Positions 16,091-31,292 of a stretch of DNA of 36,808 nucleotides are shown here, one piece after another (position 1 is the first letter of the stretch; each line of letters opens with the position of its first letter). The stretch lies in contig JARLJB010000330.1 in assembly GCA_031291415.1 (NCBI GenBank), positions 1 to 36,808 on the forward strand, in the 5' to 3' direction. The notes beneath the pieces were generated by a model. It did no database searches. It worked only from the letters and a program-made list of their open reading frames with translations, and was not told where the DNA came from. A program made the translations under genes and the position numbers. This stretch comes from Telmatospirillum sp. (GTDB lineage: Bacteria; Pseudomonadota; Alphaproteobacteria; Rhodospirillales; Magnetospirillaceae).

Positions 16091-16101
16091 TTCACTCTTT
16101 G

Positions 16102-16542: not shown

Positions 16543-16553
16543 AGTAGTTCTGT

Positions 16554-16587: not shown

Positions 16588-16608
16588 TCAAGACCAAGGA
16601 GATCATAA

Positions 16609-17184
16609 ATGGCAAAAATCGTTGTAGTCTTCCACTCTGGATACGGCCACACCAAGAAACAGGCCGAGGCCGTCGCCGCCGGAGCCGCCGCCGCCAAGGG
16701 CGCCACCGCCGAGTTGCTGGCGGTCAGCGCCGAGGGTGACCTGCCGGATGGCGGCTGGGAGAAACTCGAGGCCGCCGACGCCATCATTTTCGGCGCTCCG
16801 ACCTACATGGGCAGTGTTCCCTGGCAGTTCAAGAAATTCGCCGACGCCACCTCGAAGCCCTGGTTTACGCAGGCCTGGAAAGACAAGATCGCGGCGGGGT
16901 TCACCAATTCGGCCTCGATGAACGGCGACAAGCTGTCGACGTTGCATTACCTGTTCACCCTGTCCATGCAGCACAGCATGATCTGGATCGGCACCGGCCT
17001 GATGCCCTCCAACAAAAAAGACGCGACCCGCAACGACATCAATTATGTCGCGTCCTTCGCCGGCGCCATGGCGCAGTCGCCGTCCGACAGTTCGCCGGAT
17101 GAGGGACCGCTGCCTGGCGATCTGGAAACCGCCAAGCTGTTCGGCCAACGGGTCGCCGACTATGCCGTGAAGACCCGCGGCTAA
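16609..17184 (+). CDS. Flavodoxin-like NAD(P)H:quinone oxidoreductase family protein
   Basis: The product has 191 residues with the flavodoxin fold. The first strand and FMN phosphate loop are IVVVFHSGYGHTKKQAE (residues 4-20), followed by an Ala-rich helix, then the second flavin loop GAPTYMGSVPWQFKKF (about 64-79). A third block, GFTNSASMNGDKLSTL, contacts the isoalloxazine ring in WrbA-like proteins. It probably reduces quinones by two electrons with NAD(P)H, protecting from redox cycling. AAGGAG precedes the ATG by 8 bases. It is governed by its own promoter carrying a dyad operator and by the Rrf2 protein encoded upstream. It is too divergent to call WrbA. Confidence 0.85.
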   Translation: MAKIVVVFHSGYGHTKKQAEAVAAGAAAAKGATAELLAVSAEGDLPDGGWEKLEAADAIIFGAPTYMGSVPWQFKKFADATSKPWFTQAWKDKIAAGFTNSASMNGDKLSTLHYLFTLSMQHSMIWIGTGLMPSNKKDATRNDINYVASFAGAMAQSPSDSSPDEGPLPGDLETAKLFGQRVADYAVKTRG

Positions 17185-17385
17185 CAGCCCCTGCGGCACG
17201 CGGAGCCCCCCTCTTCGCGCGCCGCATCCCCGGCCAACCGGGCGATATCGCAGCGATCGGTGTCTATCCGATCGATATGATCTAAAAAATCATTCAAATA
17301 AGACATTTCTATTGGCCAGGGCGGTGCATCCTGATCGTTGCGCGTCATGGCCCGTTTGCGGCCCCGACGGTTATTTCCGCGACGA

Positions 17386-17422
17386 TTCGCGAAGGAGCCA
17401 GTTTCTCTCACGTTTTCGCGAA
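17386..17422. promoter_or_regulatory. Two TTCGCGAA palindromes
   Basis: The 8-base palindrome TTCGCGAA occurs at 17386-17393 and again at 17415-17422, 29 bases start to start, close to three turns of the helix. They lie 80-120 bases upstream of the ulaC promoter. The spacing suggests a dimer-of-dimers binding site for an unknown regulator. Confidence 0.35.
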
Positions 17423-17503
17423 TTCTGATGGTTTCCAAGGCCCAAGACAGACAATGCGCGGCTGCGGCTTGTCGTCCAGAATCGATGCGATTCATTTTTT
17501 GGC

Positions 17504-17556
17504 TTGCCACGGATCGATCAAAACAGCACAATACGAACAGACAAAAAAATCAAAAA
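17504..17556 (+). promoter_or_regulatory. Promoter of the ulaC operon with candidate UlaR operator
   Basis: TTGCCA (17504-17509) and CACAAT (17527-17532) are 17 bases apart, predicting a start near 17539. CGATCAAAAC (17515-17524) lies between the two elements and matches the motif found before ulaA and ulaG; a partial copy ATCAAAAA is at 17549-17556, 32 bases further. This placement fits repression by the DeoR protein encoded at 23562-24350. Confidence 0.5.
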
Positions 17557-17584
17557 GAACACAACCCGTCGAGAGAGGGGCGTT

Positions 17585-18037
17585 ATGAACCTGATCGAAC
17601 ATCTTCTGACAACGGACGCCATCCGTCTCAAGGCCAAGGCCGATGATTGGAAAGAGGCGGTACGGCTGGGCGTCGATCTCCTGGTCGCCGCCGATTCGGT
17701 CGAACCACGGTATTTCGACGCGATCATCGCAATGACCGAATCGCTCGGTCCCTGGTACCTTCTCGCGCCCGGACTGGCCATGCCGCACGCCCGCCCCGAA
17801 GAGGGTGTCAAGAAAGACGGCTTCGCCCTGGTCACGCTCGATCGTCCGGTCGCCTTCGGAAGTCCCGACAACGACCCGATCGACATCCTCATAACCTTGG
17901 CCGCCACCTCGGCCAAAACGATGAACGAGGAGTCGATCGTGCAGGTCGCCACCTTGTTCGATGACGAAGAACGCGTCGCGCGCATCCGCAACGCCCGCAA
18001 CCACGCCGAAATCGAGAGAATTCTGGGCGACATCTGA
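17585..18037 (+). CDS. ulaC: Ascorbate-specific PTS enzyme IIA, UlaC
   Basis: The product has 150 residues (E. coli UlaC has 154) and is a cytoplasmic IIA component of the fructose/mannitol-like fold. It accepts phosphate from HPr and passes it to the IIB component. The phospho-histidine is His68 in PGLAMPHARPE, exactly the E. coli position. MNLIEHLLTTDAIRLKAKADDWKEAV at the N-terminus also matches UlaC/SgaA. The ATG at 17585 has AGAGGGG ahead; an upstream in-frame start at 17504 would begin inside the promoter. It heads an operon with ulaD, ulaE, ulaF, ptsH and ptsI, so the whole phosphate relay except IIB and IIC is made together. Confidence 0.93.
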   Translation: MNLIEHLLTTDAIRLKAKADDWKEAVRLGVDLLVAADSVEPRYFDAIIAMTESLGPWYLLAPGLAMPHARPEEGVKKDGFALVTLDRPVAFGSPDNDPIDILITLAATSAKTMNEESIVQVATLFDDEERVARIRNARNHAEIERILGDI

Positions 18038-18075
18038 TCGACCGGGCGACCTTTGCTTTTCATTCACAGTCAAAG

Positions 18076-18100
18076 CCGTTCCGCGATCCCGCCGGAACGG
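18076..18100 (+). other. 8-bp hairpin in the ulaC-ulaD gap
   Basis: CCGTTCCG (18076-18083) and CGGAACGG (18093-18100) form a perfect stem with a 9-base loop, ending three bases before the ulaD ribosome site GAGGAG. It has no U-run. It may stabilise the ulaC message or tune ulaD translation. Confidence 0.5.
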
Positions 18101-18116
18101 ACGAGGAGATCTTTGA

Positions 18117-18773
18117 ATGCCTCTCCCATTGCTGCAACTCGCGCTCGACAACCGCTCCCTTCCCGACGCGCTGACCGCGACGCGCCTCCTCGCCACAGAA
18201 GTCGACGTCCTCGAGGCCGGCACCATCCTGATCGGCGCCGAGGGCATGCAGGCGGTCCGTTGTCTGAAGACCCTCTATCCCGATCGCATCGTGCTGGCCG
18301 ACATCAAGGCGGCGGACGCCGGATCGATCCTTGCCGACATGTGCTTCGGCTCCGGTGCCGACTGGATGACCGTCATCTGTTGCGCCCCGATCGCCACCGT
18401 GACCTCGGCCATGGCTGAAGCCAAAAAACGTGGAGCGGGTTACGACGTCCAGGTCGAATTGACCGGTTCCTGGTCCTGGGAGGAAGCGAAAGCCTGGCGG
18501 GCCGCCGGCCTGTCGCAACTGGTCTATCACCGGGGGCGGGATGCCCAGGCCGCCGGGCAGTCGTGGTCGGACGAGGATCTGGCGAAGATCCGGCGGTTGG
18601 CCGACATGGGTTTCGCCTTGTCGATCACCGGCGGCCTGACGATCGACGATCTGCCGCTGTTCGCCGGCCTGCCCGTCAAAGTCTTCATTGCCGGACGCGC
18701 CATTCGCGACGCCGCCGACCCGGCAGCGGCGGCCCGCGCTTTCAAGGCGCGCATCGCCGAGCTGTGGGGCTGA
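18117..18773 (+). CDS. ulaD: 3-keto-L-gulonate-6-phosphate decarboxylase UlaD
   Basis: The product has 218 residues (E. coli UlaD 216) and is a TIM-barrel enzyme of the orotidine-phosphate decarboxylase suprafamily. It uses Mg2+ to convert 3-keto-L-gulonate 6-phosphate to L-xylulose 5-phosphate and CO2. The metal and catalytic residues Glu33, Asp62, Lys64 and Asp67 (LADIKAADAG) sit at the E. coli positions. YHRGRDAQAAGQSW and the phosphate-binding ends SITGGL and FIAGRAIRDA are also conserved. GAGGAG lies 7-8 bases before the ATG. It is followed after 5 bases by ulaE. Confidence 0.96.
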   Translation: MPLPLLQLALDNRSLPDALTATRLLATEVDVLEAGTILIGAEGMQAVRCLKTLYPDRIVLADIKAADAGSILADMCFGSGADWMTVICCAPIATVTSAMAEAKKRGAGYDVQVELTGSWSWEEAKAWRAAGLSQLVYHRGRDAQAAGQSWSDEDLAKIRRLADMGFALSITGGLTIDDLPLFAGLPVKVFIAGRAIRDAADPAAAARAFKARIAELWG

Positions 18774-18778
18774 CAGCG

Positions 18779-19645
18779 ATGTCCGGATGCGCCCTGCCAC
18801 CGATCGGCATTTACGAAAAGGCGCTTCCGCGGCAATTCGACTGGTCGCAGCGGCTGGCCGCCGCCCGGTCGATCGGCTTCGATTTTGTCGAAATGTCGAT
18901 CGATGAGACCGATGGGCGTTTGGCGACCCTCGACTGGTCGCGGGCGGAACGACGCACTTTCCGAAGAGCCGTCGAGGAAAGCGGCATCAACGTGCCATCG
19001 ATTTGCCTGTCGGCCCACCGGCGATTCCCCTTCGGCAGCGCCGACCAGATGGTACGTGAACGGGCTCGAGACATCATGCGCAAGGCCATCGGCCTGGCGA
19101 CCGACACCGGAATACGAACGCTCCAGCTTGCCGGTTACGATGTCTATTACGAGCCGTCGACCGCCGAGAGTCTGAGCCGTTTCGAGGAGGGCTTGGCCTG
19201 GGCGACCGAATTGGCGGGAAAAGCGCAGGTCATGCTCGCCGTTGAAATCATGGATACGCCTCTGATGGGCTCGATCTCCAAATGGCTGCGCTATGCCCGG
19301 CAGATTTCCAGTCCCTGGTTCCAGGTCTATCCGGATCTCGGAAACCTGGCGGCCTGGGGCAACGACGTGCCGGCGGAACTGGCCAAAGGGATCGACCATA
19401 TCGTCGCCGTCCACGTCAAGGACACGCTGGCGGTTCGGCCGGATTTTCCCGGCAAGTTCAAGGAGGTCCCGTTCGGTACCGGCTGTGTCGACTTCGTCGC
19501 GGCCTTTGCCGCCTTGAAACGGCTGGGCTACCACGGCTGTTTTCTTATCGAAATGTGGACCGGCGAAATCGCGGATCCGCTCGCCGAAGTCACGCGGGCC
19601 CGAACCTGGGTGATCGACCGGATGATCGAAGGGGGACTGGCATGA
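18779..19645 (+). CDS. ulaE: L-xylulose-5-phosphate 3-epimerase UlaE
   Basis: The product has 288 residues (E. coli UlaE 284) and is a TIM-barrel sugar-phosphate epimerase that turns L-xylulose 5-phosphate into L-ribulose 5-phosphate. [10 protein letters not shown] at the start and [11 protein letters not shown] are family signatures. The four metal ligands can be assigned as Glu156 (VEIMDT), Asp186 (YPDLGN), His212 (VHVKD) and Glu258 (LIEMWT). The open frame extends upstream into ulaD, but ATG 18779, 5 bases after the ulaD stop with GGGG before it, gives the family length. Its stop overlaps the ulaF start (ATGA at 19642-19645), so the two are translationally coupled. Confidence 0.95.
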
Positions 19646-20337
19646 CGATCCTTGACCTCAAGCGCGACGTACTCGCTGCCAATCTTGAGCTTTCGCGCCG
19701 TGGGTTGGCGCTTTTCACCTGGGGCAACGCCTCCGCCATCGACCGGACGCGAGGACTCGTGGTGATCAAGCCATCCGGCGTTCCCTACGATCAGATGGAG
19801 GCCGACGACATGGTGGTTGTCGCCCTCGACGGCACGGTTGAAGCCGGGCGCTACAAACCATCGTCGGATCTGGCGACGCATCTCGAACTCTACCGCGCCT
19901 TTGGCGAGATCGGCGGCGTCGTTCACACCCATTCCCCGCACGCCACCGCCTGGGCGCAGGCCGGCGTCGATCTGCCGGCCGAAGGCACGACACACGCCGA
20001 CTATTTTTACGGTGCCGTCCCCTGCACCCGCCCCTTGACCGAGATCGAGATCGGTGGTGCTTACGAACGGGAAACCGGCAAAGTGATCGTCGAGACGATG
20101 AACGACAGAAATCTCGCCCCCTTGTCGATGCCCGCCGCTCTCGTTGACGGACATGGCCCTTTCACCTGGGGAGCTTCTGCCGCCGACGCAGTCCACAATG
20201 CCGTCGTTCTTGAAGAGGTGGCGCACATCGCGATCCTGTCGCGGAACGTCGGGACATCGAAGCCCATGTCACGGGCGTTGCTCGACCGCCATTTCTTGCG
20301 CAAGCACGGACCGGCGGCCTATTACGGCCAAAATTAA
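19642..20337 (+). CDS. ulaF: L-ribulose-5-phosphate 4-epimerase UlaF (AraD family)
   Basis: The product has 231 residues, the length of E. coli AraD. It is a zinc-dependent class II aldolase-fold epimerase making D-xylulose 5-phosphate, which enters the pentose phosphate pathway. The zinc ligands His95, His97 (VVHTHSPHA) and His171 (LVDGHGPF), and the catalytic residues Asp76 (SSDLATH) and Asp120 (THADYFYG), coincide with the AraD numbering. The start ATG has GGGGGA just upstream and overlaps the ulaE stop. The ula context, not sequence alone, separates UlaF from AraD and SgbE. A 180-base structured gap follows before ptsH. Confidence 0.95.
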
Positions 20338-20350
20338 GGCCGCTAAGACC

Positions 20351-20482
20351 AAGTCTCGATGAGGATTGCGCATCAAGACTTGACTGGCCCAATGAGGGCC
20401 CGTGAGCCGATGCGAGCGCAGCCAAGGGACGCTGAGGCGTCCCGCCTGGCGCATGAGGGGCGGTGATCGGTTACGATCACCG
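20351..20482 (+). ncRNA. Four consecutive hairpins, possible structured leader of ptsH-ptsI
   Basis: Four stems stand in a row between ulaF and ptsH. First, AAGTCTCGATG (20351-20361) pairs with CATCAAGACTT (20371-20381) with one mismatch. Second, GGCCC-5-GGGCC spans 20386-20400. Third, GGGACGC-TGAG-GCGTCCC spans 20426-20443 with further flanking GCCA/TGGC pairing. Fourth, CGGTGATC (20461-20468) pairs with GATCACCG (20475-20482) around 6 bases. No stem has a U-run. I recognise no known riboswitch class; a 5' leader controlling the general PTS genes, or an mRNA processing region, would fit. Confidence 0.4.
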
Positions 20483-20517
20483 CAACGTAGTATAAGGAAA
20501 CGACCGGGGAGGTCGCG

Positions 20518-20778
20518 ATGTACGCTCAGGAAGTTGAAATCGTCAATCCGACGGGCCTGCACACTCGTCCGGGAAATGCTTTCGTCAAGAAGGCGAAGGA
20601 ATTCACCTCGACGATCAACGTCATCAAGGGAGAGAAGCGGGCCAATGCCAAAAGCCTGCTGACCCTGATGAAAGTTGGTTGTTCGATGGGCGACCATGTG
20701 ACGATCGAGGCCGTCGGTCCAGATGAAGTCGACGCCGTCGATGGATTGGTCGCCTTCGTCGCGACGCTCAAGGACTGA
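20518..20778 (+). CDS. ptsH: Phosphocarrier protein HPr
   Basis: The product has 86 residues, the normal HPr size. The phospho-histidine is His15 in PTGLHTRPG, and Ser46 (NAKSLLTLM) occupies the regulatory serine position. It relays phosphate from enzyme I to UlaC. The ribosome site GGGGAGG lies 5 bases before the ATG, one of the strongest in the window. It is followed after 4 bases by ptsI. Many alphaproteobacteria keep only a nitrogen-type PTS without sugar permeases, so an HPr gene inside a sugar operon suggests a relay dedicated to ascorbate; whether other HPr copies exist in the genome cannot be seen here. Confidence 0.95.
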   Translation: MYAQEVEIVNPTGLHTRPGNAFVKKAKEFTSTINVIKGEKRANAKSLLTLMKVGCSMGDHVTIEAVGPDEVDAVDGLVAFVATLKD

Positions 20779-20782
20779 CGCC

Positions 20783-22555
20783 ATGCACGGCTTCAGAGGA
20801 GTGGGCGCCTCGCCGGGAATCGCGATCGGCAGGGTGTTCGTACATGTCCCACCGTCGCTTGCCGTTTCCGATGCGACAGTGCCGGCCGCTCTGCGTCAGG
20901 CGGAAGTCGAGAGTTTTCTCCAGGGCCGGCAAAAGGCCCTTGTCGGCTTCGAGTCCTTGATCGACAAGGTCCGGGCGGAAAAGGGCGACGACCTCGCCGG
21001 TGTCTTCGAGGGACACGCCGAAATTCTGATGGATGAAGAGCTTGGCGAAGCCATCGTCGGACGGATCCGCGACGACGGCCAGTCGGCGTTGGCCGCCGTC
21101 CGCGACGCCATGGAGGCGCAACGCGCCGAGTTCCTGGCTCTCGACGACGAATATCTGCGCCAGCGCGCCGACGATCTCAGCGACATCGGACGCCGCTTGA
21201 TGCTGGCCATCGCCGGCGTCGAGGAGGTTCGCCTCGAGGACCTTCCCAAGGGAAGCATCGTCGTCGCCCAGGATCTTGGCCCCTCCGATACCGCCAGGCT
21301 CGACCGCGACCGGGTCGCCGGCTTCGTGGTCGCCGCCGGCGGCCGGACCAGCCATGTGGCAATCATGGCAAGGACCCTTGAACTGCCGGCGGTGGTCGGT
21401 TGCGCCGACATCTTCGACGTGGCGACCTCCGGCCAAGTCATTGCGCTCGACGGCGGCGACGGCCGGGTGATGGTTGATCCGGACGCGGAGGCCTTGGCCG
21501 ATTTCGAGTGCCGGCGCGCCGCCCATGCCACGGCGATGGAAGCGATGCGGGCCTTGTCGCCGTTGCCAGCGACGACCGGCGACGGCCACCGCGCGTTCCT
21601 GGGCGTCAACATCGGCACCCCGGCCGATGCCGAGGCGGCCCTTCCCTGGAATCCCGACGGCGTCGGCCTCTATCGGACCGAATTTCTGTTCATGAACCGG
21701 ACCGGTCTGCCCTCCGAAGAGGAGCAATATCGCGCCTATGCCGCGGTCGTCCGCGCCATGAAGGGCCGCCCCGTCGTCATTCGAACGCTCGACGTCGGCG
21801 GCGACAAACCAGTCGACGGACTGGGTTTCACCCGCGAGGACAATCCATTTCTCGGCTGGCGAGGCGCCCGTCTGTTTCTCTATGGCTCCGATGGAGCCAT
21901 CCCCAACCGTGACCCCGAGGTCAAGCAGCAGATGGAGGCGCAGTTGAGCGCGGTGCTGCGCGCCGCCGTCGATGGCAATGTCTGGTTGATGTATCCGATG
22001 ATCTCCTCGGTCGAGGAGGTCGACGTCCTCAGGCAACAACAGGACGATGTCCGTGCCCGTTTGGCCGCGGCCGGCCGGCAGGTCGGGCAGATCCGCACCG
22101 GAATCATGATCGAAACGCCCGGTGCCGCACTGGTCGCCGATAAACTCGCGGAAAAGGTCGACTTCTTCTCGATCGGCTCGAACGACCTCACGCAATACAC
22201 GCTGGCCGCCGACCGTGGAAATGGCCGGATCGCCCCCGTCTACCAACCCTTTCATCCCGGCGTCTGGCGGCTCATCGCCGGCGTCATCAAAGCCGCCCGC
22301 CGCCGCGCTATTCCGGTTGGACTGTGCGGCGAACTGGCCGGCATCGAGGAGGCGGCGCTGCCGTTGCTCGGACTGGGACTTGACGAATATTCGATGGCGG
22401 CGCCGACCCTGCCGCGCATCAAACGGATCATCCGCGCCGCCACCATGCCCGAAGCCGAAGCGATCGCCCGCGCCATCCTCGACGCGCCAACCGCCGCGGC
22501 AGCCTTGGCCATGGCCGGCGACGCCATGCGCGCCGTTCTCGGTCGCGTCCAATGA
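20783..22555 (+). CDS. ptsI: PTS enzyme I (phosphoenolpyruvate-protein phosphotransferase)
   Basis: The product has 590 residues (typical EI about 575). It autophosphorylates with phosphoenolpyruvate and phosphorylates HPr. The HPr-binding and phospho-histidine domain spans roughly 1-225, with His191 in AAGGRTSHVAIMAR. The PEP-binding barrel follows, with GLYRTEFLFMNR, TLDVGGDKP, GIMIETPGAAL, SIGSNDLTQYTLAADR and the catalytic Cys in GLCGELAG. There is no N-terminal GAF domain, so it is a sugar-type EI and not PtsP (EI-Ntr). The start ATG 20783 has AAGGA nine bases upstream and follows ptsH by 4 bases; a longer frame overlapping ptsH is not needed. It is the last gene of the ulaC operon. Confidence 0.95.
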   Translation: MHGFRGVGASPGIAIGRVFVHVPPSLAVSDATVPAALRQAEVESFLQGRQKALVGFESLIDKVRAEKGDDLAGVFEGHAEILMDEELGEAIVGRIRDDGQSALAAVRDAMEAQRAEFLALDDEYLRQRADDLSDIGRRLMLAIAGVEEVRLEDLPKGSIVVAQDLGPSDTARLDRDRVAGFVVAAGGRTSHVAIMARTLELPAVVGCADIFDVATSGQVIALDGGDGRVMVDPDAEALADFECRRAAHATAMEAMRALSPLPATTGDGHRAFLGVNIGTPADAEAALPWNPDGVGLYRTEFLFMNRTGLPSEEEQYRAYAAVVRAMKGRPVVIRTLDVGGDKPVDGLGFTREDNPFLGWRGARLFLYGSDGAIPNRDPEVKQQMEAQLSAVLRAAVDGNVWLMYPMISSVEEVDVLRQQQDDVRARLAAAGRQVGQIRTGIMIETPGAALVADKLAEKVDFFSIGSNDLTQYTLAADRGNGRIAPVYQPFHPGVWRLIAGVIKAARRRAIPVGLCGELAGIEEAALPLLGLGLDEYSMAAPTLPRIKRIIRAATMPEAEAIARAILDAPTAAAALAMAGDAMRAVLGRVQ

Positions 22556-22940
22556 CGACCGGCACCACGGGACAGTAATTTTGACGGTCTGAAGATCTCT
22601 ATCTGTTCGAGCTAAGCGACCGCGATGGGCTGAAAGCGGAATGGCTCCTGTCCGACCGGGAAATGGGGCAACCGGACACTGCCGACGAGCCCTGCTTCGG
22701 CAGTAATTGGCCCAACTACGACAGCCCGGTGACATCGAGGAATGTCCGTTATCTGGAATTGGCGCCAAGCTCTGGAACGACCTTGGTGGGCGCCAAACAG
22801 CAGTGATGGCCGGCTCACACTTTTATCGCCACAATCGCGAGAGACGGTAAGCGCGGTGTTTCGCAACATGACCCTCGCATCCTGGCAGCAGATTTCATTC
22901 TATGCTGCCTCGAGGCGGATCATCACGAAGGAGAAAAGCC
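22556..22940. other. 385-base gap after ptsI without a recognisable gene
   Basis: The gap contains an 8-bp inverted repeat TTGGCGCC (22759-22766) / GGCGCCAA (22789-22796). The frames that cross it (for example 22612-22869 on the minus strand) lack ribosome sites and resemble nothing I know. It may be a decayed remnant. Confidence 0.4.
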
Positions 22941-23378
22941 ATGAAACGCGGCAAATTGACGGACAAGATCGAGGTGGCTGGGCAACCGACCGCGGAGGAG
23001 GTCAAGGGCCTCAAGGCCGAAGGCTTCACCACGGTGGTCAATATGCGGCGCGACGGCGAGGCTGACCAGCCGCTTTCGCCCGCCGAAGAGGGACGGGCGG
23101 CTCAAGCCGCCGGGCTGGACTACCACCATATCCCGGTCGATCCGAACGATCTGCAGCCGGAGCAGGCGGCGGCCCTCAAGAAGGTCTTAGAAGAAGCCAA
23201 AGGCCCTGTCTTCCTTCATTGCGCCGGTGGCCCACGGGCCACGGCAGTGGCTCTCGTGGCATTGGGTGTCAGGGACAAGGAAGCAGCGCTGGCCACCGCA
23301 GCCAAGGCCGGCTTCCCGATCACCAATCCGAATCAAATCGCCTTCATCGAACGCGAAACAGGCAAGGGCAGACAGTAA
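22941..23378 (+). CDS. DUF442 / beta-lactamase-hydrolase-like protein phosphatase domain protein
   Basis: The product has 145 residues, a single domain of the tyrosine-phosphatase-like DUF442 family. It starts with the family pattern KIEVAGQPTAEEVKGLKAEGFTTVVNMRRDGE and carries the active-site loop VFLHCAGGPRATAVAL with Cys and Arg four residues apart, as is usual in this family. Members occur alone or fused to a metallo-beta-lactamase/rhodanese (Blh/BigR operons) in sulphide and biofilm control; the reaction of stand-alone members is uncertain. AAGGAG lies 7 bases before the ATG. The gene stands alone between ptsI and ulaR, with no evident link to ascorbate. Confidence 0.8.
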   Translation: MKRGKLTDKIEVAGQPTAEEVKGLKAEGFTTVVNMRRDGEADQPLSPAEEGRAAQAAGLDYHHIPVDPNDLQPEQAAALKKVLEEAKGPVFLHCAGGPRATAVALVALGVRDKEAALATAAKAGFPITNPNQIAFIERETGKGRQ

Positions 23379-23471
23379 TCGACGGGGGCACTCGACATCG
23401 TCGCCAGCGACTCGGCGATGCAGATGCTCGCTGACCAGCCGCTGGCGCCTGCCTGCGGGATTTTTGTAGTC

Positions 23472-23498
23472 GCCATTCCCGCTTTCGCAGGAATGACG
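23472..23498. repeat. Dispersed palindromic element
   Basis: CATTCC (23474-23479) pairs with GGAATG (23490-23495) around GC-TTTC-GC, the outer bases being gCGCC/GACGG. The sequence resembles the widespread proteobacterial intergenic repeat reading GTCATTCCNGCGAAAGCGGG. It sits downstream of both the DUF442 gene and the convergent ulaR gene and may act as a shared 3'-end structure. Confidence 0.55.
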
Positions 23499-23561
23499 GG
23501 GAAACGTGACTGAAAAACCGTAACTGACGACACGCTCTGACGCATCACGCTCCAGGCGGCG

Positions 23562-24350
23562 TCAGTCCTGGCCGGGCCGGCAGACCACGGTCTCGATGCC
23601 GCTGTTGCGATAGGCCGCCAATTCACCCTGATCGGCATCGTCGTCGGTGACGAGAACACGGACCTGCGACAGAGGCAGACTGACGAAATGCGAGGTCTTG
23701 CCGATTTTCGAGGAATCGGCCACGACAACGACATTGCCTTTGCATTGCGTGGCCATCAGCCGATTGATCGACGCCGCGGCATAGATCGATGACGTCAAAC
23801 CGGTATGCTGGCTCATCGCATTGGTGCCGAGAAAACAGATCGTGCCATAGATTTCGTTCAGCGTCAGATTGGTCAGGTCGCCGTTCAGCGCCCGGGTATC
23901 ACGGTTGTATTCGCCGCCAAGGACGAACAGGGTCGCAGCGGTGTCGTCGGTCATTTCGCCGAGGACCGTCGCATTGTTGGTGATGATCCGGACATCCATC
24001 CGCGAGATCTCGCGGAAAACCGCAAGCGTCGTCGTCCCACCGCTGAGCAGCACGGTGTCGCCCGGCCGGACCAGACGGGCGGCAGCGGCGGCGATCAGCC
24101 GTTTCTTGCCGACCTGACCCGCATCGGTGCCTTCCGCGGCATCGGCCGGCCGATGGGCGATCAGACGGGCGCCGCCGTGAACGCGCTCGATCAGTCCCTG
24201 TTCGGCCAATTCGTCGAGATCGCGCCTGACGGTAATCTCGGAGACCTGAAAGGACTGGGCGAGATCGGCGACCCGGACAATGTCCGTGGCCCCCAATTGA
24301 TCCATCAGTTTCCGGCGCCGTGCCGAGGTCATGCGACCAGAACTCCCCAT
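23562..24350 (-). CDS. ulaR: DeoR-family regulator, probable ula operon repressor UlaR
   Basis: The product has 262 residues. The DNA-binding winged helix covers about residues 22-60 (RVADLAQSFQVSEITVRRDLDEL, then IERVHGGARL). The DeoR sensor domain follows with VLLSGGTTTLAVFREI, IITNNATVLGEM, FVLGGEYN, FLGTNAM and VVVADSSKIG. ATG 24350 has GGAG six bases ahead; ATG 24332 is possible. It is divergent from ulaA and sits amid the ula genes, so it most likely represses them and is released by a ula intermediate (in E. coli, L-ascorbate 6-phosphate). It is not especially close to E. coli UlaR in sequence, so the name rests on position and on the shared operator motif. Confidence 0.8.
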   Translation of the reverse strand: MGSSGRMTSARRRKLMDQLGATDIVRVADLAQSFQVSEITVRRDLDELAEQGLIERVHGGARLIAHRPADAAEGTDAGQVGKKRLIAAAAARLVRPGDTVLLSGGTTTLAVFREISRMDVRIITNNATVLGEMTDDTAATLFVLGGEYNRDTRALNGDLTNLTLNEIYGTICFLGTNAMSQHTGLTSSIYAAASINRLMATQCKGNVVVVADSSKIGKTSHFVSLPLSQVRVLVTDDDADQGELAAYRNSGIETVVCRPGQD

Positions 24351-24691
24351 CTCTCACTCCTGCCTTTCCCGGCCATTGCACCATCGCATCCGACCCAAAC
24401 GTCGGCCATCGCCACGGAGCACACCGCGCCATTTCTTTATACGCTGTGTCCAGGCGACCGCAATATCCGCCGGTTGAAAAATCGTACAATTCATGCAAAA
24501 CGATCAAAACGACCTATTATTTGTGCGATTTCACCTGCCATATAGATTGTTTTGAAGCGAAAACAGTCATAATATCCATATTTAGAGATTGAACTGAATA
24601 CCGCCCGCTCAGCGGCCAGAGAGAGGTGGGCAGTTCGTTCCCGTTCTTTCCATCCGGCCGCGCTGCGTCGACGACGCCAGGAGGAGGTTCA
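24351..24691. other. Divergent control region between ulaR and ulaA
   Basis: These 341 bases separate the two divergent genes. The middle (about 24470-24600) is strongly A/T-rich and holds the operator and promoter listed separately. I see no gene in it. The ulaA leader would be about 110 bases. Confidence 0.6.
24496..24575 (+). promoter_or_regulatory. Candidate UlaR operator and ulaA promoter
   Basis: CAAAACGATCAAAACG (24496-24511) contains a direct repeat CAAAACGA with a 9-base period and matches the sites before ulaC and ulaG. Downstream, TTGTTT (24547-24552) and TAATAT (24570-24575) are 17 bases apart on the plus strand and could drive ulaA. The operator lies between the ulaR start and this promoter, so it could control both directions. 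Confidence 0.5.
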
Positions 24692-26146
24692 ATGGATCCG
24701 ACCATGTTCAATGGGCTGATGGGGATCTGGAAAGGATTTTTCGACAATGTGATGGCCGAACCGGCCATCTTTATCGGCTGCATCTCGCTTGTCGGCTACA
24801 TCCTCCTGCGCAGACCGGCCCACGAGTGTTTCGCCGGCTTCATCAAGACCACTGTCGGATTCTACATTCTGCTTGTCGGATCGGGAGGGTTGGTCAACAA
24901 CTTCCGGCCGATTCTTGCCGGGCTGGCCGAGCGCTTTCATATGAAGGCCGCGGTGATCGATCCCTATTTTGGCTGGAACGCCGTGACCGGCGCTTTTGCC
25001 AAGGCCGGCTGGACCACGTCGCTGATCATGATGGCGCTGTTGATCGCCTTTCTGTGGAACATCCTGCTGGTCGCCTTCCGGCCCTACACCAAGATCAGGA
25101 CGCTTTTCCTCACCGGGCATGTGATGATTCAGCAGGCCAACACCAGCCTATGGATGATCTTCATTGCCATTCCGGCGCTGCAGAACAATGTCTGGGGCAT
25201 CGTCGCCTGCGGCATCATGTTGGGAACCTATTGGGCGGTGTTCTCCAATCTGACGCTGGAGCCGACCCAGGAACTGACCGAGGGCGCCGGCTTTGCCGTC
25301 GGGCATCAGCAGATGGCGGCCATCTGGCTGACGGCCAAGCTCGCCCCGAAGATCGGCGATCGCAAGACATCCGTCGAACATCTGAACCTGCCCGGCTTTC
25401 TCAAGGTCTTCAACGACAACGTCGTCGCCGCCAGCACGCTCATGCTTATCTTTTTCGGCACGATTCTTTACATTCTCGGGCCGGAATATCTGGCTGCGAG
25501 AAAGTTCTACAATCCGGCCAGTGGCGAGTGGTTTTTCAAATACGTCTTCAAAACGACCATTCATTTCGCGGTTTATCTGTTCATCCTGCAATCCGGCGTC
25601 CGCATGTTCGTCGCCGAATTGACCAATTCTTTCCAAGGCATTTCCGAACGGCTGCTCAAAGGGTCGCTGCCGGCGATCGACTGTGCCGCCACCTACGGTT
25701 TCGATAAGGCCGGCGGCAACTCGGTATTGTTCGGTTTCGTTTGCGGCGCTATCGGCCAGTTTGTCGCCATCATGGGGCTGATCGTGTTTCAATCGCCGAT
25801 TATGATCATCACCGGATTCGTGCCGGTGTTCTTCGACAATGCGACGCTCGGCGTCTTTGCCAACCGCTTCGGAGGTCTGCGCGCCCTGGTGATCATTTGT
25901 TGCAGTTGCGGCGTGCTGCAGGTCCTGGGCGGCGCACTGGCGGCCGGGTTGACCGGTCTCTACGAGTTCGGCGGCTACCACGGCAATATCGATTGGGATA
26001 CACTGTGGACCTTCAATGCCTGGATGTTCCAGGTGTTCGGGTTGCCGTCAATCGTCGTCCTGACGCTGCTCATGCTGGCCATTCCCCAGATTCAATACCG
26101 GCGCAACCGGGCGACCTACTTCACCCATGGCGCCGCCTCGGAGTGA
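24692..26146 (+). CDS. ulaA: Ascorbate-specific PTS enzyme IIC, UlaA
   Basis: The product has 484 residues (E. coli UlaA 465), an integral membrane permease of the SgaT/UlaA family with about 11 hydrophobic segments. It carries L-ascorbate across the inner membrane as it is phosphorylated at C6 by UlaB. GYILLRRPAHECFAGFIKTTVGFYILLVGSGGL near the N-terminus, then GHVMIQQANTSLWM, EGAGFAVGHQQMAAIW and the late TGFVPVFFDNATLGVFANRFGG are the family's conserved stretches. ATG 24692 has AGGAGGAGG in front; the frame reading in from 24626 is noncoding leader. It forms an operon with ulaB (97 bases downstream) and the HAD phosphatase. Confidence 0.96.
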   Translation: MDPTMFNGLMGIWKGFFDNVMAEPAIFIGCISLVGYILLRRPAHECFAGFIKTTVGFYILLVGSGGLVNNFRPILAGLAERFHMKAAVIDPYFGWNAVTGAFAKAGWTTSLIMMALLIAFLWNILLVAFRPYTKIRTLFLTGHVMIQQANTSLWMIFIAIPALQNNVWGIVACGIMLGTYWAVFSNLTLEPTQELTEGAGFAVGHQQMAAIWLTAKLAPKIGDRKTSVEHLNLPGFLKVFNDNVVAASTLMLIFFGTILYILGPEYLAARKFYNPASGEWFFKYVFKTTIHFAVYLFILQSGVRMFVAELTNSFQGISERLLKGSLPAIDCAATYGFDKAGGNSVLFGFVCGAIGQFVAIMGLIVFQSPIMIITGFVPVFFDNATLGVFANRFGGLRALVIICCSCGVLQVLGGALAAGLTGLYEFGGYHGNIDWDTLWTFNAWMFQVFGLPSIVVLTLLMLAIPQIQYRRNRATYFTHGAASE

Positions 26147-26243
26147 GCCGGCAAATCCAATCCGATCCCCGAAAGGGAGCGACCCCGGCTCGACCAACGA
26201 AGCGGGGCGCAGTCAAGGGAACGGGGCTACCAGGGAGGAAACA

Positions 26244-26525
26244 ATGTTGAAAGTCATCGCGGCCTGCGGCAACGGCATGGGAACGTCCCAGATCATCAAG
26301 ATGAAGATCGGCAATGTCTTCAAACGACTGAATATCCAAGTTGAAGTCGGCCATATGTCGGTCGGAGAAGCGATCGGACAGGCCGGTAATTACGACGTGG
26401 TCTTCTGTTCCGATTCACTGGCCGGATCCTTCAAGGCCGGAGGCAAGACGAAGATCATCGGCCTCAAGAATCTGCTGTCGGAACAGGAAATCGAAACAAA
26501 ACTCAAGGACGCCGGCCTTGCCTGA
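26244..26525 (+). CDS. ulaB: Ascorbate-specific PTS enzyme IIB, UlaB
   Basis: The product has 93 residues (E. coli UlaB 101). It receives phosphate from UlaC on Cys8 in the loop AACGNGMGTSQIIK and phosphorylates ascorbate bound by UlaA. The rest follows the lactose/cellobiose IIB-like fold, with VEVGHMSVGEAIG and VVFCSDSLAGSF. GGGAGG precedes ATG 26244 by 5 bases; the longer open frame upstream overlaps the ulaA end and lacks coding quality. With UlaA and UlaC all three ascorbate PTS parts are present in the window. Confidence 0.95.
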   Translation: MLKVIAACGNGMGTSQIIKMKIGNVFKRLNIQVEVGHMSVGEAIGQAGNYDVVFCSDSLAGSFKAGGKTKIIGLKNLLSEQEIETKLKDAGLA

Positions 26526-26574
26526 CATCTCGCCGGTTATCCCTTATAGTCCAGTCTCCAATCGATTTTCTCTA

Positions 26575-26611
26575 CGAGCGCCGCCATGGGAGATCGCTCC
26601 GGCGGCGCTCG
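26575..26611 (+). other. 11-bp perfect hairpin between ulaB and the HAD phosphatase gene
   Basis: CGAGCGCCGCC (26575-26585) pairs with GGCGGCGCTCG (26601-26611) around a 15-base loop. It lies 50 bases past the ulaB stop and 30 bases before the next start. No U-run follows, so partial termination or message stabilisation is more likely than a full stop. Confidence 0.55.
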
Positions 26612-26640
26612 CTTGAAGCTCCTTGCCCCGGAAGGTTTCC

Positions 26641-27459
26641 ATGGGATTTCGCATCATTGCCCTTGATCTCGACGGTACCACGCTCGATTCCCACGGCGCC
26701 ATCCGCCCCAGCACCAAGGCGGCAGTCTCGGCCGCTCTCGCCCGCGGCCTCGAGGTCGTCCTGGTCACCGGCCGACATCACGTCGCGACAAGGCCCTACC
26801 ATGTCGAGCTTGGCCTGACGTCGGAGACGATCTGCTGCAACGGCACCTATGTATACGACTTCGCCGCCTCGAAGGTCATCGTCGGCAACGCAATGAGCCG
26901 GGAACAGGCGCGGCGGATGCTGGCGATCTGCCGCCGCCATAACGTCCACTGCTTCCTTTATCTGACCGACGCGATGACCTTCGAAGTGCCCAACGCCCGT
27001 GTCGAGCGGCTCTGTGCCTGGGCCAACAGCTTTCCGCCGGACACCCGTCCCGACATCCGGCAGGTCGACAGTTTCGATCGCGAGATCGACCGGGCCAGTG
27101 GATTTTGGAAGTTTGTCGTTTCCCATGATGATGCCGATGTCCTGGCAGCCTGGCAGGCCGAAGCGAACGAAAGCGGCGAATTCAGTCTCGAATTCTCATG
27201 GACCAATCTCGTCGACGCCGTTCTTGCCGGCAATACCAAAGGCCAAAGACTGCTCGACTGGGCCGCAGCCCGCGGCGTCGCCGCCGATGAAATCATCGCC
27301 TTCGGCGACAACCACAATGATCTCAGCATGATCGGCTCGGTCGGTCTCGGCGTCGCCATGGGCAACGCCGAAGAGGCGCTCAAAGCCGCCGCCGGATGGG
27401 TGACCGGTGACAACGATTCCGACGGTATCGCCGAAACGATCGAGCGATTTGCGCTTTAG
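26641..27459 (+). CDS. Cof-type HAD-IIB sugar-phosphate phosphatase
   Basis: The product has 272 residues. HAD motif I is DLDGTT at residues 9-14 (nucleophile Asp9, acid Asp11), motif II is VTGRH, and the late motif IV is FGDNHNDLSMIG followed by GVAMGNAEEALKAAA, the pattern of the YidA/YbiV/Cof group. These Mg2+ enzymes remove phosphate from diverse sugar phosphates. GGAAGG lies 5 bases before ATG 26641. Its position behind ulaAB suggests relief of sugar-phosphate stress or dephosphorylation of a ula intermediate, but this is inference. E. coli's ula regulon has no such gene. Confidence 0.87.
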   Translation: MGFRIIALDLDGTTLDSHGAIRPSTKAAVSAALARGLEVVLVTGRHHVATRPYHVELGLTSETICCNGTYVYDFAASKVIVGNAMSREQARRMLAICRRHNVHCFLYLTDAMTFEVPNARVERLCAWANSFPPDTRPDIRQVDSFDREIDRASGFWKFVVSHDDADVLAAWQAEANESGEFSLEFSWTNLVDAVLAGNTKGQRLLDWAAARGVAADEIIAFGDNHNDLSMIGSVGLGVAMGNAEEALKAAAGWVTGDNDSDGIAETIERFAL

Positions 27460-27609
27460 TGTTCTGACACAGACGCATGCATCATTGATTCCCCCACCCC
27501 AACCCTCCCCACAAGGGGGAGGGAGCCTGGAATTTTACTCCCCTCCCCTCGATGGGGAGGGGTTGGGGGCGGGGTGGAATCCCGGAATTTTCTGATTGTG
27601 TCAGAACAC
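27459..27609. repeat. 151-base element with 13-bp perfect terminal inverted repeats
   Basis: GTGTTCTGACACA (27459-27471) is exactly mirrored by TGTGTCAGAACAC (27597-27609). Inside, a C-rich stretch (about 27489-27510) faces a G-rich one (about 27553-27582), with GATTCC at 27487 facing GGAATC at 27576, so the whole can fold into one long imperfect hairpin. It begins at the last base of the HAD phosphatase stop codon. It could be a MITE-like insertion or a large 3'-end structure; no target duplication is clear. Confidence 0.55.
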
Positions 27610-27665
27610 CAGGCTCAATGCGATGCCTCCGGTTTCGGCGGATTTAAGCGCCGCCCGGGCGCGTC

Positions 27666-27705
27666 GCATCTTACGATCAGGTGGTTCGACTTGATCGTAA
27701 GATGC
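27666..27705. repeat. 14-bp perfect palindromic element
   Basis: GCATCTTACGATCA (27666-27679) and TGATCGTAAGATGC (27692-27705) are perfect inverted arms around 12 bases containing GTTCGAC. Palindromes of this general look (arm, GGTTCGA-like loop, arm) are common between rhizobial genes, so it is probably a dispersed element. The arms also contain the ACGATCA core of the candidate UlaR motif. Confidence 0.5.
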
Positions 27706-27822
27706 TCTGATTCCCCACTTCGATAAGCGACGTGACCGGCCAGACGTAGAACCATCCGGGATATCCTGGCCAGGCGGCTCTGCACCCCACGGAAAATTGT
27801 TCGTATTGACGGTTATCTAAGG

Positions 27823-27919
27823 TTTTTTGATCGACTTATCGGCAAAAATAGATCATAACGATCATAATTCTCTCACTTTGTCAGATTTATGTTTTATTTT
27901 TGAATATTACGATCAAAAT
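27823..27919 (+). promoter_or_regulatory. Cluster of three candidate UlaR sites and promoter before ulaG
   Basis: The motif occurs as CGATCAAAAAA on the minus strand (27823-27833), as CATAACGATCATAA (27854-27867, a 9-base direct repeat) and as TTACGATCAAAAT (27907-27919). TTGTCA (27878-27883) and GAATAT (27902-27907) are 18 bases apart and may be the promoter, placing the last site at the transcription start and the others upstream. The region is A/T-rich and uninterrupted by coding. Confidence 0.5.
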
Positions 27920-27985
27920 AGTCACTTGATCATCCTCCAAGCCATGTCCTGGCCGATGGATGAATTGCCGAGAAGGATCGATGAC

Positions 27986-29050
27986 ATGAGCCAACTGGAT
28001 GAGATCACACGAGAATCCTGGATCCTCGGGACTTTTCCGCAGTGGGGCACCTGGCTGAACGAGGAAATCGAGGCGGAGGTCGTGAAACCCGGGACCTTCG
28101 CCATGTGGTGGCTCGCCTGCACCGGCGTCTGGATCAAGACCGAGGGCGACGGCAACCTTTGCATCGACCTGTGGTGTGGTACCGGCAAACGGTCGCATGG
28201 CAACGGGCTGATGGCGAAAAACCATCAAATGGCCAGGATGAGCGGCTGTAAGAAACTGCAACCGAATCTGCGCCTCTCACCCTTCGTGATCGATCCCTTC
28301 GCCATCCGCAAGGTCGACGCCATTGTGTCGACTCACACCCACAACGATCATATCGACAAGAATGTCGCGGCGGCGGTGATCAGGAACTGTCCGTCATCGG
28401 TGCCGTTCATCGGTCCGAAAAGCTGCACCGACCTGTGGCAGAGCTGGGGCGTCCCGGCCGAACGCTGCGTCACCATGCGACCGGGGTCCTCGGTGCGGGT
28501 CAAGGACATCGAAATCCTGGCGCTCGAATCTTTCGACCGCACGATGGCCATCACCTTGCCGGCCGATCAGACCGCCGCCGGCAAACTGCCCGCCAACATG
28601 GATGACGTCGCCGTCAACTATCTGGTCAAGACGCCGGGCGGAAACATCTATCACAGCGGCGATTCGCACTATTCGAACTTCTACGCCAAGCACGGCAACG
28701 AACATCGCATCGACGTGGCGCTTGGATCGTTCGGAGAAAATCCGCGCGGTATTTCCGACAAGATGACCGCCTGCGATATTCTGCGCATGGCCGAAGCTTT
28801 GCGGACCCGCGTCATCATTCCATTCCACCACGACATCTGGTCGAACTTCCAGGCGGACACCGCCGAAATCACCGTGCTATGGGAAATGCGGCGCCGGCGG
28901 CTGCGCTCGACCTTCACGCCGTTCATCTGGCAGGTCGGCGGCAAGTTCACCTATCCCGACGACAAGGACGTCGTGCAATACAACTATCCGCGCGGTTTCG
29001 ACGACGCATTCACCGGTGAACCCGACCTGCCTTTTCCATCCTTCCTTTGA
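27986..29050 (+). CDS. ulaG: L-ascorbate-6-phosphate lactonase UlaG
   Basis: The product has 354 residues, exactly the length of E. coli UlaG, and the two agree almost throughout. [23 protein letters not shown] opens the protein, the metallo-beta-lactamase metal motif is THTHNDHID (His117, His119, Asp121, His122), and [13 protein letters not shown] and [12 protein letters not shown] follow. It hydrolyses L-ascorbate 6-phosphate to 3-keto-L-gulonate 6-phosphate, the substrate of UlaD, using a divalent metal. ATG 27986 has AAGGA eight bases ahead; the open frame from 27827 is promoter DNA. It is transcribed alone, behind its own cluster of candidate operators. Confidence 0.97.
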
Positions 29051-29068
29051 CGCCCCAGCCGTAAATTA

Positions 29069-29104
29069 TCCACAGCCGCTCGCCCAACAGCGATTGGCTG
29101 TGGA
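29069..29104. terminator. Hairpin between ulaG and dapF
   Basis: TCCACAGCC (29069-29077) and GGCTGTGGA (29096-29104) form perfect outer arms with a further GCT/AGC inside. It begins 18 bases after the ulaG stop and probably marks the 3' end of its transcript, though no T-run follows. The left arm includes TTATCCACA, a DnaA-box sequence, but there is only one. Confidence 0.45.
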
Positions 29105-29136
29105 CTCTCCCTGTCGGCACGCCATATAAGGCGGAC

Positions 29137-29985
29137 ATGACTATGATTTCGCCGCAGGGCCGCCCCTTTTTGAAAATGCACGGGCTGGGCAACGACTTTG
29201 TCGTGCTCGACGCCCGCACCCGCCCGCTTGCCCTGTCGGGCGACGCCATCCGCGCTGTCGCCGACCGGCGTACCGGCGTCGGTTTCGACCAGATGATCGT
29301 CATCGAACCGGCCCGCAGCAAACTGGCCGACATCTTCATGACCATCTGGAATTCCGATGGATCGGAAGTTGCGGCTTGCGGGAACGCCACGCGATGCGTC
29401 GCCTGGACGCTGATGCGGGCCAGCGGTCACGACCACGCCATCATCGAAACCAAGGCGGGCCTTCTCGATGCCCACGCCGCCGCCGGCGGCCTGATCAGCG
29501 TCGACATGGGACCGGCGCGCCTGGATTGGCGCGACATGCCACTCAGCCAGGCGATCGACACCAATCATCTGCCGCTGTCCCTCGAGACGCTCGCCGATCC
29601 GGTCGGCGTCAACATGGGCAACCCGCATGCCGTCTTTTTCGTCGACAACGCCGAGGCGGTCGATCTGGCCCGTCTCGGGCCAATTCTCGAACATGACCCG
29701 CTGTTTCCCGAACGCTGCAACATCGAGGTGGTCGAGAAGCTTGGGCCCGAGCGGTTGCGCATGCGCGTCTGGGAACGCGGCGCCGGCATTACGCGGGCCT
29801 GTGGCACGGGGGCCTGCGCCAGCCTGGTGGCGGCGGCCCGCCGCGGCATAACCGGCCGTCATGCCGACGTGGTGCTTGATGGCGGGACGCTCACCATCGA
29901 ATGGCTGAGGGACGATCATGTGCTGATGACCGGCCCCGTCGCTCTCAGTTATGCCGGTACCCTCGACAACAGCCTGCTGCCATGA
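29137..29985 (+). CDS. dapF: Diaminopimelate epimerase DapF
   Basis: The product has 282 residues. It interconverts LL- and meso-diaminopimelate for lysine and peptidoglycan synthesis. The fold is two pseudo-repeats, each giving a catalytic cysteine: Cys81 in EVAACGNATRC and Cys222 in TRACGTGACA. The N-terminal FLKMHGLGNDFVVLD and GFDQMIVIEP are diagnostic. ATG 29137 follows AAGGCGG; a second ATG six bases on is possible. Its stop overlaps the mtaB start (ATGA, 29982-29985), and the order dapF-mtaB-ftsY is typical of Rhizobiales and their relatives. Confidence 0.97.
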   Translation: MTMISPQGRPFLKMHGLGNDFVVLDARTRPLALSGDAIRAVADRRTGVGFDQMIVIEPARSKLADIFMTIWNSDGSEVAACGNATRCVAWTLMRASGHDHAIIETKAGLLDAHAAAGGLISVDMGPARLDWRDMPLSQAIDTNHLPLSLETLADPVGVNMGNPHAVFFVDNAEAVDLARLGPILEHDPLFPERCNIEVVEKLGPERLRMRVWERGAGITRACGTGACASLVAAARRGITGRHADVVLDGGTLTIEWLRDDHVLMTGPVALSYAGTLDNSLLP

Positions 29986-31292
29986 CGGCCGTTCCCGAAG
30001 TCCTGCGTCCGACCACGGACGCCGCCGATGGCGCCGGTCCCGACGTCATGACCTTCGGATGCCGACTGAATTCCTATGAATCGGAAGTCATGCGCCAACA
30101 TGCCGAAGCGGCCGGCTGGCAAAACACCGTCATCGTCAACACCTGCGCGGTGACCAAGGAGGCCGAGCGCCAGGCCCGCCAGGCCATCCGCAAGCTGCGC
30201 CGTGAACGGCCGAACGCCAGAATCGTGGTGACCGGCTGCGCCGCCCAGATCGACCCGCAGAAATTCAGCGCCATGGCCGAAGTCGACCAGGTCATCGGCA
30301 ATACCGAGAAGATGCAGGCCGAAAGCTATCTGACCCCCAGCCCCGAACGCATTGTCGTCACCGACATCATGGCCGTGCGTGAGACGGCAGAGCATCTGAT
30401 CTCGGGCTTCGAGGACCGGGCCCGCGCCTTCGTCGAGATCCAGCAAGGCTGCGATCACCGCTGTACCTTCTGTATCATCCCCTTCGGCCGCGGCCCCAAC
30501 CGCAGCGTACCGATGGGCCGCATCACCGACCAGATCCGTCTGCTGGCCGCCGCCGGCTTCGCCGAAGTCGTGCTGACCGGTGTCGACATTACCGCCTATG
30601 GCGCCGACCTGCCGGGACGGCCGCGACTGGGCCAGATGATCCGGCGCCTGCTGGCCCAGGTGCCGGAACTTCCCCGGCTGCGCCTGTCATCGCTCGATCC
30701 CGTCGAAGTCGATGACGATCTGTTGCGGCTGGTCGCCGACGAGCCTCGGCTGATGCCGCATTTCCATCTGTCGATTCAGGCCGGCGACGATCTGATCCTG
30801 AAACGGATGAAGCGCCGCCACCTGCGCGGCGATGTCATCGATCTGGCCGGACGATTGCGCGCCCGGCGGCCCGACCTGGCGCTGGGCGCCGACATCATCG
30901 TCGGCTTTCCGACCGAGAGCGAGGCGATGTTCGAGCAGTCGCTGGCCTTGGTCGAGGAAATCGGCCTTACCCATCTCCACGTTTTTCCCTTTTCGGCACG
31001 CCCAGGGACACCGGCGGCCCGCATGCCCCCGGTGGCCGGCGATGTCATCAAGGAACGCGCCGCCCGTCTGCGCGCCAAAGGCGATGCGGCGATGACAGCC
31101 TTCCTGGCCAGTCGGATCGGCTGTGAGGCGGCCGTCCTCATGGAAAAGAACGGATTCGGTCATTGCGAGCACTATTTGCCGGTCCATCTCGATGGCGATT
31201 GGACGGCCGGCAGCATCGTCCGGACGCGTATCACCGCCGTCGCCGATGGGCGGCTGACCGCCGTCCCGCTGACCGGTCTCTCCGGGTCATGA
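29982..31292 (+). CDS. mtaB: tRNA N6-threonylcarbamoyladenosine(37)-C2 methylthiotransferase MtaB
   Basis: The product has 436 residues and is a radical-SAM methylthiotransferase that adds a methylthio group to t6A37 of tRNAs reading ANN codons. The N-terminal UPF0004 domain has its three cluster cysteines at Cys27 (FGCRLN), Cys55 (NTCAVT) and Cys86 (TGCAAQ). The radical SAM cluster is Cys157, Cys161, Cys164 in QQGCDHRCTFCIIPFGRG. VVLTGVDITAYG and the late HVFPFSARPGTPA are typical of MtaB rather than MiaB. The C-terminal TRAM-like region is short. It overlaps the dapF stop by 4 bases. Confidence 0.95.
   Translation: MTAVPEVLRPTTDAADGAGPDVMTFGCRLNSYESEVMRQHAEAAGWQNTVIVNTCAVTKEAERQARQAIRKLRRERPNARIVVTGCAAQIDPQKFSAMAEVDQVIGNTEKMQAESYLTPSPERIVVTDIMAVRETAEHLISGFEDRARAFVEIQQGCDHRCTFCIIPFGRGPNRSVPMGRITDQIRLLAAAGFAEVVLTGVDITAYGADLPGRPRLGQMIRRLLAQVPELPRLRLSSLDPVEVDDDLLRLVADEPRLMPHFHLSIQAGDDLILKRMKRRHLRGDVIDLAGRLRARRPDLALGADIIVGFPTESEAMFEQSLALVEEIGLTHLHVFPFSARPGTPAARMPPVAGDVIKERAARLRAKGDAAMTAFLASRIGCEAAVLMEKNGFGHCEHYLPVHLDGDWTAGSIVRTRITAVADGRLTAVPLTGLSGS

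Follow-up and report, generated by a model that had tools for sequence, protein, structure and literature searches.

The window analysed here, a stretch of 36,808 nucleotides from a Telmatospirillum sp. contig (JARLJB010000330.1), carries at 17585-29050 a complete set of ula functions, namely the IIA, IIB and IIC components of an ascorbate phosphotransferase system (PTS), a lactonase, a decarboxylase and two epimerases, all identified by family scans. Within this block, the genes for HPr (ptsH) and for an enzyme I (EI) free of a GAF domain (ptsI) sit 3' of ulaF. In the usual picture of the PTS, one EI/HPr pair supplies all transporters. Here, the block would be a horizontally acquired L-ascorbate utilisation cassette carrying its own EI and HPr, a reading to which we assign a probability of about 0.7. 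The features of the block are as follows.

17190-29085, no strand: inserted block; similarity to three congeners ends at 17185-17189 and restarts at 29086-29120.
17585-18037, + strand: ulaC, PTS IIA of the ascorbate type (NF007694, 188.7 bits, cut-off 187; PF00359).
18117-18773, + strand: ulaD, 3-keto-L-gulonate-6-phosphate decarboxylase (NF009832, 292.9, cut-off 250; full-length alignment to 1kv8).
18779-19645, + strand: ulaE, L-ribulose/xylulose-5-phosphate 3-epimerase (NF009689, 415, cut-off 200).
19642-20337, + strand: ulaF, L-ribulose-5-phosphate 4-epimerase (NF006047, an AraD-type 4-epimerase model, 346, cut-off 257; PF00596).
20348-20493, no strand: intergenic stretch between ulaF and ptsH, with 82% similarity to contig C235 of this genome.
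20518-20778, + strand: ptsH, HPr (PF00381; aligned to 1ggr chain B).
20783-22555, + strand: ptsI, enzyme I without GAF (TIGR01417, 528, cut-off 342; aligned to 2hwg).
22941-23378, + strand: BLH-type phosphatase or sulfurtransferase-like gene, between ptsI and deoR (PF04273).
23562-24350, - strand: DeoR-family regulator, candidate ula repressor (matches to DeoR-family models, none of them above its cut-off).
24692-26146, + strand: ulaA, PTS IIC (PF03611; aligned to 5zov and 4rp8).
26244-26525, + strand: ulaB, PTS IIB (PF02302; aligned to 3czc).
26641-27459, + strand: HAD-IIB phosphatase (NF007821, over its cut-off).
27986-29050, + strand: ulaG, L-ascorbate-6-phosphate lactonase (NF008688, 632, cut-off 306; aligned to 2wyl).

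The block is laid out as three transcription units plus the DeoR-family gene. A preliminary description of this DNA had proposed that all seven ula functions are present with intact catalytic residues and that a ptsH and a GAF-less sugar-type ptsI accompany them, and both points hold. In alignments to solved homologues, the catalytic stretches of EI, HPr, UlaD, UlaG and IIB, containing the residues that we take to be catalytic, are kept; solved UlaA homologues cover most of the length of UlaA, and MPHARPE can be read in the IIA (UlaC). The ula regulon of E. coli comprises the same seven functions, with a DeoR-family regulator adjoining, as in the cassette.

The lactonase, decarboxylase, 3-epimerase and 4-epimerase of the pathway are all represented, the models used for ulaF being ones that do not separate UlaF from AraD. 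For transport, an ascorbate-class IIA and a IIB are accompanied by a GAT-type IIC that falls under the narrow equivalog cut-offs (for example, the ascorbate IIC model gives 367, its cut-off being 380), and UlaD also scores under the narrower UlaD model NF009831 (280.8 against 294). The sequence itself does not reveal the substrate, and these two shortfalls would suit a cassette that imports something else, for instance a compound related to ascorbate or gulonate. Nonetheless, UlaG scores 632 against a cut-off of 306 as ascorbate-6-phosphate lactonase and UlaC passes the ascorbate IIA model, which makes another substrate improbable. In the expected pathway, phosphoenolpyruvate (PEP) would phosphorylate EI, from which the phosphate would pass to HPr, to the IIA (UlaC) and then to the IIB (UlaB), while UlaA would take up ascorbate as ascorbate-6-phosphate. 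UlaG would then open the lactone, UlaD would decarboxylate the product, and UlaE and UlaF would carry out the epimerisations leading to D-xylulose-5-phosphate.

The locus in which the block is inserted is conserved in congeners. In three of them (G151, G152 and G153), found with the query window 14200-34190 among 55 genomes of the family, the flanking genes are adjacent, and the spacing at this empty site is 208, 190 and 349 bases. The left neighbour is a flavodoxin-like gene ending at 17184, identified by reading, and the right neighbour is dapF, from 29137; for a fourth congener, G154 (0.9 Mb), the site is not shown among the matches listed. Of the 317 genomes of the order, only this one has UlaA, and in the class 2 of 385 do, the second case being a 28% match in G409. 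Carriage by a plasmid was considered and rejected, as the 152 plasmid records that match UlaA are all below 60% identity (best 48%). No tRNA was found at the block, and Rfam gave 0 matches in the window.

The draft assembly has 412 contigs and 3.56% contamination, so the window contig (C159) might be thought chimeric or a contaminant, or ptsHI a decaying passenger. This is hardly credible, because both flanks match the three congeners in the same order, the frames are open and the motifs intact. Moreover, a pair of intergenic stretches within the block (20348-20493 and 27458-27612) are 82-87% alike to other contigs of this genome, which speaks against contamination; they may be dispersed repeats that inserted into the cassette once it had arrived. 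The ula block is real, complete and transferred.

A UlaA scan of genome contigs gave 423 relatives, the best 80 of which were analysed in loci 3.5-21.5 kb long, so that the absence of a gene near ula is not final. Among these 80, the closest UlaA proteins come from Uliginosibacterium gangwonense, a betaproteobacterium (L064, 69%), and from a metagenome-assembled genome of a soil proteobacterium (L063, 67%), the others reaching at most 59%. Both loci have the same gene set, with ptsH-ptsI directly 3' of ulaF, so that in all three genomes the EI and HPr genes lie inside the transporter cluster. The gap between ulaF and ptsH is 180 bases in the window, and 58 and 52 bases between matched stretches in the two related cassettes; in the window, ptsI starts 4 bases after the end of ptsH. 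No counterpart of the BLH-type phosphatase-like gene was found in L063 or L064, and the ulaG of L064 is clipped by the end of the locus. Also, L063 shows no ulaD between ulaC and ulaE (4273-5603) or elsewhere in the 13.5 kb fetched.

Both ptsH and ptsI are found near ula in 7 of the 80 loci (ptsH alone in 5, ptsI alone in 1): 2/2 in Pseudomonadota, 4/4 in Spirochaetota, 1/69 in Bacillota, 0/4 in Fusobacteriota and 0/1 among the unplaced. The spirochaete clusters (L109, L113, L119 and L120) resemble the cassette in having ptsH-ptsI beside ula, whereas their EIs group apart, in a starred clade of their own in the EI tree. In Bacillota loci L088, L091, L092, L096 and L072, the ula cluster has a ptsH-like gene with no ptsI nearby, so that only HPr is private.

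Within Pseudomonadota, UlaA matches are present in 23 of 398 genomes, this one included. Of the others, the ten above 300 bits were examined in stretches of 19.9 kb each, the remainder being a match in two parts (G958) and eleven weak matches. Unlike the cassette, none of these ten ula clusters (0/10) contains ptsH or ptsI within its stretch, and their UlaA proteins, 40-44% identical to that of the window, lie beyond a 100% branch, which makes another sampled member of the phylum unlikely as the source of UlaA (short tree search, no bootstrap). All ten genomes have a standalone general-type EI elsewhere (10/10, E ≤1.7e-135), and the three families involved would be Enterobacteriaceae, Vibrionaceae and Pasteurellaceae. 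The pair would travel with ula in the present proteobacteria probably because no general EI/HPr, such as serves the ula systems of other proteobacteria, is available in their hosts.

The cassette EI belongs to a lineage of its own. It consists of three PEP-utiliser domains only (Pfam), and an assignment to the nitrogen type (PtsP) was rejected, since it has no N-terminal GAF and the PtsP model matches only from its position 171 on. It is not an enteric-type general EI either: the cassette EI and ten sampled standalone Pseudomonadota EIs, which would correspond to group T of Comas et al., fall in separate 100/100 clades with 42-45% identity. In a tree of 43 rows, a 100/100 branch sets the EIs of the window, L063 and L064 apart from all others. 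The other EIs of the genome on contigs C189, C320, C21, C131 and C381 fall in starred groups without ula EIs and that of C48 in a weak long-branch pair, so that 5 of 6 argue against a recent duplication of an own EI. An approximately unbiased (AU) test forcing all own EIs together with the ula EIs gave p 1.3e-54, a value that lacks specificity, since the own EIs do not form a single clade themselves. A same-class donor of the EI was not found among the sampled members, the best-scoring EI having 41% identity and others up to 43%. The ula-linked EIs of spirochaetes are a separate starred clade, and a tree uniting them with the proteobacterial ula EIs in a single clade is not rejected (p-AU 0.17).

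The trees of PtsI and UlaA that the preliminary description had called for were built, and EI follows UlaA. The UlaA tree, built from 51 rows by a short search with no bootstrap, has the same shape, with the window outside and L063 with L064. In 9/9 proteins common to all three genomes, the L063 and L064 versions are nearer to one another than to that of the window. Path lengths from the window to L063 and L064 are 0.54 and 0.64 for EI and 0.58 and 0.60 for UlaA, whereas R-type EIs of the same genomes are 1.57 and 1.54 apart. The cassette EIs thus appear closer among these three genomes than either their R-type or their fructose-type EIs, which we take as support, not proof. Judged from these sequences, the view that the private relay is a lineage co-inherited with its transporter is well supported. 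Of the description's phrase "self-contained, transferable ascorbate PTS module", the second adjective stands, given the empty site, the single UlaA in 317 genomes of the order, the same cassette in L063 and L064 and the matching trees. The first rested on a premise that fails, as the genome holds six HPr domains, seven EI domains and three PF02378 EIICs.

Regulation would also tie the units together. The DeoR-family protein is 47-49% alike to the deoR products of L064 and L063, and a 9-mer is common to the regions 5' of ulaC, ulaA and ulaG (first-order Markov shuffles, n=100, average 0.02 shared 9-mers), giving three candidate operators.

17515-17523, + strand: candidate operator CGATCAAAA, 5' of ulaC.
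24501-24509, + strand: candidate operator CGATCAAAA, 5' of ulaA.
27910-27918, + strand: candidate operator CGATCAAAA, 5' of ulaG.

Five of the six copies of CGATCA[AT]A in the window lie within these regions, and the pattern is also present 5' of ulaA in L063 (one copy) and L064 (two copies), not 5' of the other units there. This suggests that the ulaC, ulaA and ulaG units may form one regulon. The DeoR-family repressor probably controls these units, in which case relay and transporter would be made together. A promoter scan gave 3 sites against 2.8 in shuffles, and a terminator scan 7 against 10.8.

The preliminary description had pictured the relay as standing out in a genome with a regulatory PTS only, and this is not borne out. 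It had also named another complete sugar-type HPr/EI pair and many other EII systems in the genome as what would refute its claim, and this is what the genome search found. By domain search, the genome has the six HPr domains, cassette included, and eight PF02896 matches, seven of them counted as EI including that of the cassette; the eighth, on C92, is probably PPDK-like, judging by its 899-aa frame. Also present are the three PF02378 EIICs, two EIIA-man domains and three EIIA_2 domains. Over the cut-off, the only EIIC-GAT is that of the window, with a weak match on C131 below it. The components outside the window are distributed as follows.

C189: HprK-like short frame, EIIA-man, HPr and a 603-aa EI.
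C320: EIIA-man-HPr-EI.
C131: IIA-HPr-EI with EIICB.
C381: single 1345-aa EIIB-EIIC-EIIA-HPr-EI.
C21: IIA-HPr-EI.
C48: PtsP-like EI, under the cut-off of the PtsP model.
C113: EIIA_2.
C39: EIIBC next to a MurNAc-6-phosphate etherase gene.

The short HprK-like frame beside EIIA-man and HPr on C189 is consistent with an alphaproteobacterium when compared with passages of PMC2937029. Given so many other domains, dedication of the pair to ascorbate cannot be argued from their absence. Being separate, GAF-less proteins of the sugar type, PtsH and PtsI could in principle be the general sugar pair of the cell, simply located next to ula. However, in four other relays, on C381, C131, C21 and C320 (4 of the 6 HPr domains), HPr is fused with a IIA and an EI of its own, the pair stands beside ula in three distant genomes, and congeners G151 and G152 match the IIA-HPr-EI part of C381 yet have no UlaA and an empty site; a general pair is therefore quite improbable. 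A promiscuous relay, in which ptsHI came with the cassette and UlaC is also fed by other HPr proteins while the ula HPr feeds transporters such as the C39 IIBC, is rather unlikely. The other HPr and EI domains of the genome, the need of the C39 transporter for a donor in trans and the crosstalk between relays known from other bacteria are in its favor, whereas the five other HPr domains share only 28-35% identity with that of the cassette. On the strength of its distinct EI lineage and its gene order, the relay is likely to be dedicated to ascorbate, with the pair mainly serving this transporter.

Several observations weigh against the reading of the block as an acquired cassette with its own relay. 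Its composition shows no sign of foreign origin (GC 0.608, against 0.608 in the left flank and 0.640 in the right), which means either an old entry or a donor of similar composition. Among the open reading frames scanned in the window, which did not include all small ones, no integrase or transposase was found, and no 18-base direct repeat has copies at both borders. The pairing is not general, since 73 of the 74 loci outside Pseudomonadota and Spirochaetota are without ptsH, ptsI or both near ula. Regarding co-inheritance, fructose-type EIs differ by path lengths of only 0.79 and 0.83 between the same genomes, and R-type EIs may evolve faster, which would weaken the path-length argument. The three upstream regions of L063 have no 9-mer in common. 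Finally, the five other HPr and six other EI domains are possible alternative sources of phosphate, and the C39 EIIBC, having no IIA, HPr or EI nearby, must be fed in trans, so that exclusive relays are not the rule in this genome.

It is possible, although we hold it somewhat less probable than even, that the EI/HPr pair is specialised as an orthogonal ascorbate relay that recognises UlaC and is insulated from the rest, and that, except in families with a general EI, proteobacteria pass on the ascorbate PTS as a relay-carrying cassette. If so, PTS-rich proteobacteria of this kind would be sets of parallel PEP relays, not one shared chain. An unfused EI/HPr pair inherited with one transporter across bacterial classes, in a cell with several other relays, offers a natural test set for the origin of EI-HPr-IIA specificity and a testable rule for the entry of PTS transporters into hosts without a general pair. 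Testing is made practical by Uliginosibacterium gangwonense DSM 18521, a cultured holder of the cassette.

Azospirillum brasilense is an alphaproteobacterium. Its FruB is an EIIA-HPr-EI protein according to the excerpted text of PMC11837500, and that PTS has its own EI and HPr, as here, but fused and fructose-specific, unlike here. An excerpt of a Brucella paper (PMC2937029) states that alphaproteobacteria are without PTS permeases, a statement that is too broad. PTS operons with their own EI/HPr are already known for other sugars. IIA-HPr-EI proteins, a glucitol-class HPr-EI of Mesorhizobium loti and, on a plasmid of Haloarcula marismortui, a fructose cluster with unfused EI and HPr are described in the excerpted text of Comas et al. 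2008 (PMC2405797). These systems resemble the cassette in that EI and HPr are encoded in the transporter operon itself, and the Haloarcula pair, too, is unfused. However, those in that excerpt are of the fructose, glucose-type, glucitol or dihydroxyacetone classes, whereas the cassette is of the ascorbate class with a distinct EI clade. Among the titles and abstract openings listed from the open PMC literature, no ascorbate cluster with its own ptsHI was found, which is not a claim of absence from print.

Some further observations concern the other PTS genes. The C381 frame (L026:7867-11904) encodes a whole PTS in one chain and adjoins a GH1 glucosidase; among the matches listed in the 317 genomes of the order, only its own match spans residues 1-1345, the others starting at position 490 at the earliest, and its EI groups with that of C131. 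On C39 (L028:7024-9544), the EIIBC is of the GlcNAc type. The IIA-HPr-EI of C21 (L027:4451-7030) is of the fructose type and lies beside a LacI-family gene, no PF02378 EIIC being found on that contig. In the window itself, 518-13189 holds a deoxy-sugar (rhamnose/fucose-like) cluster with a rhamnulokinase, a fuconolactonase-like gene, a lactaldehyde reductase, a sugar ABC transporter and a DeoR gene, and a putative isomerase and aldolase of this cluster, by reading alone, are at 9518-12096.

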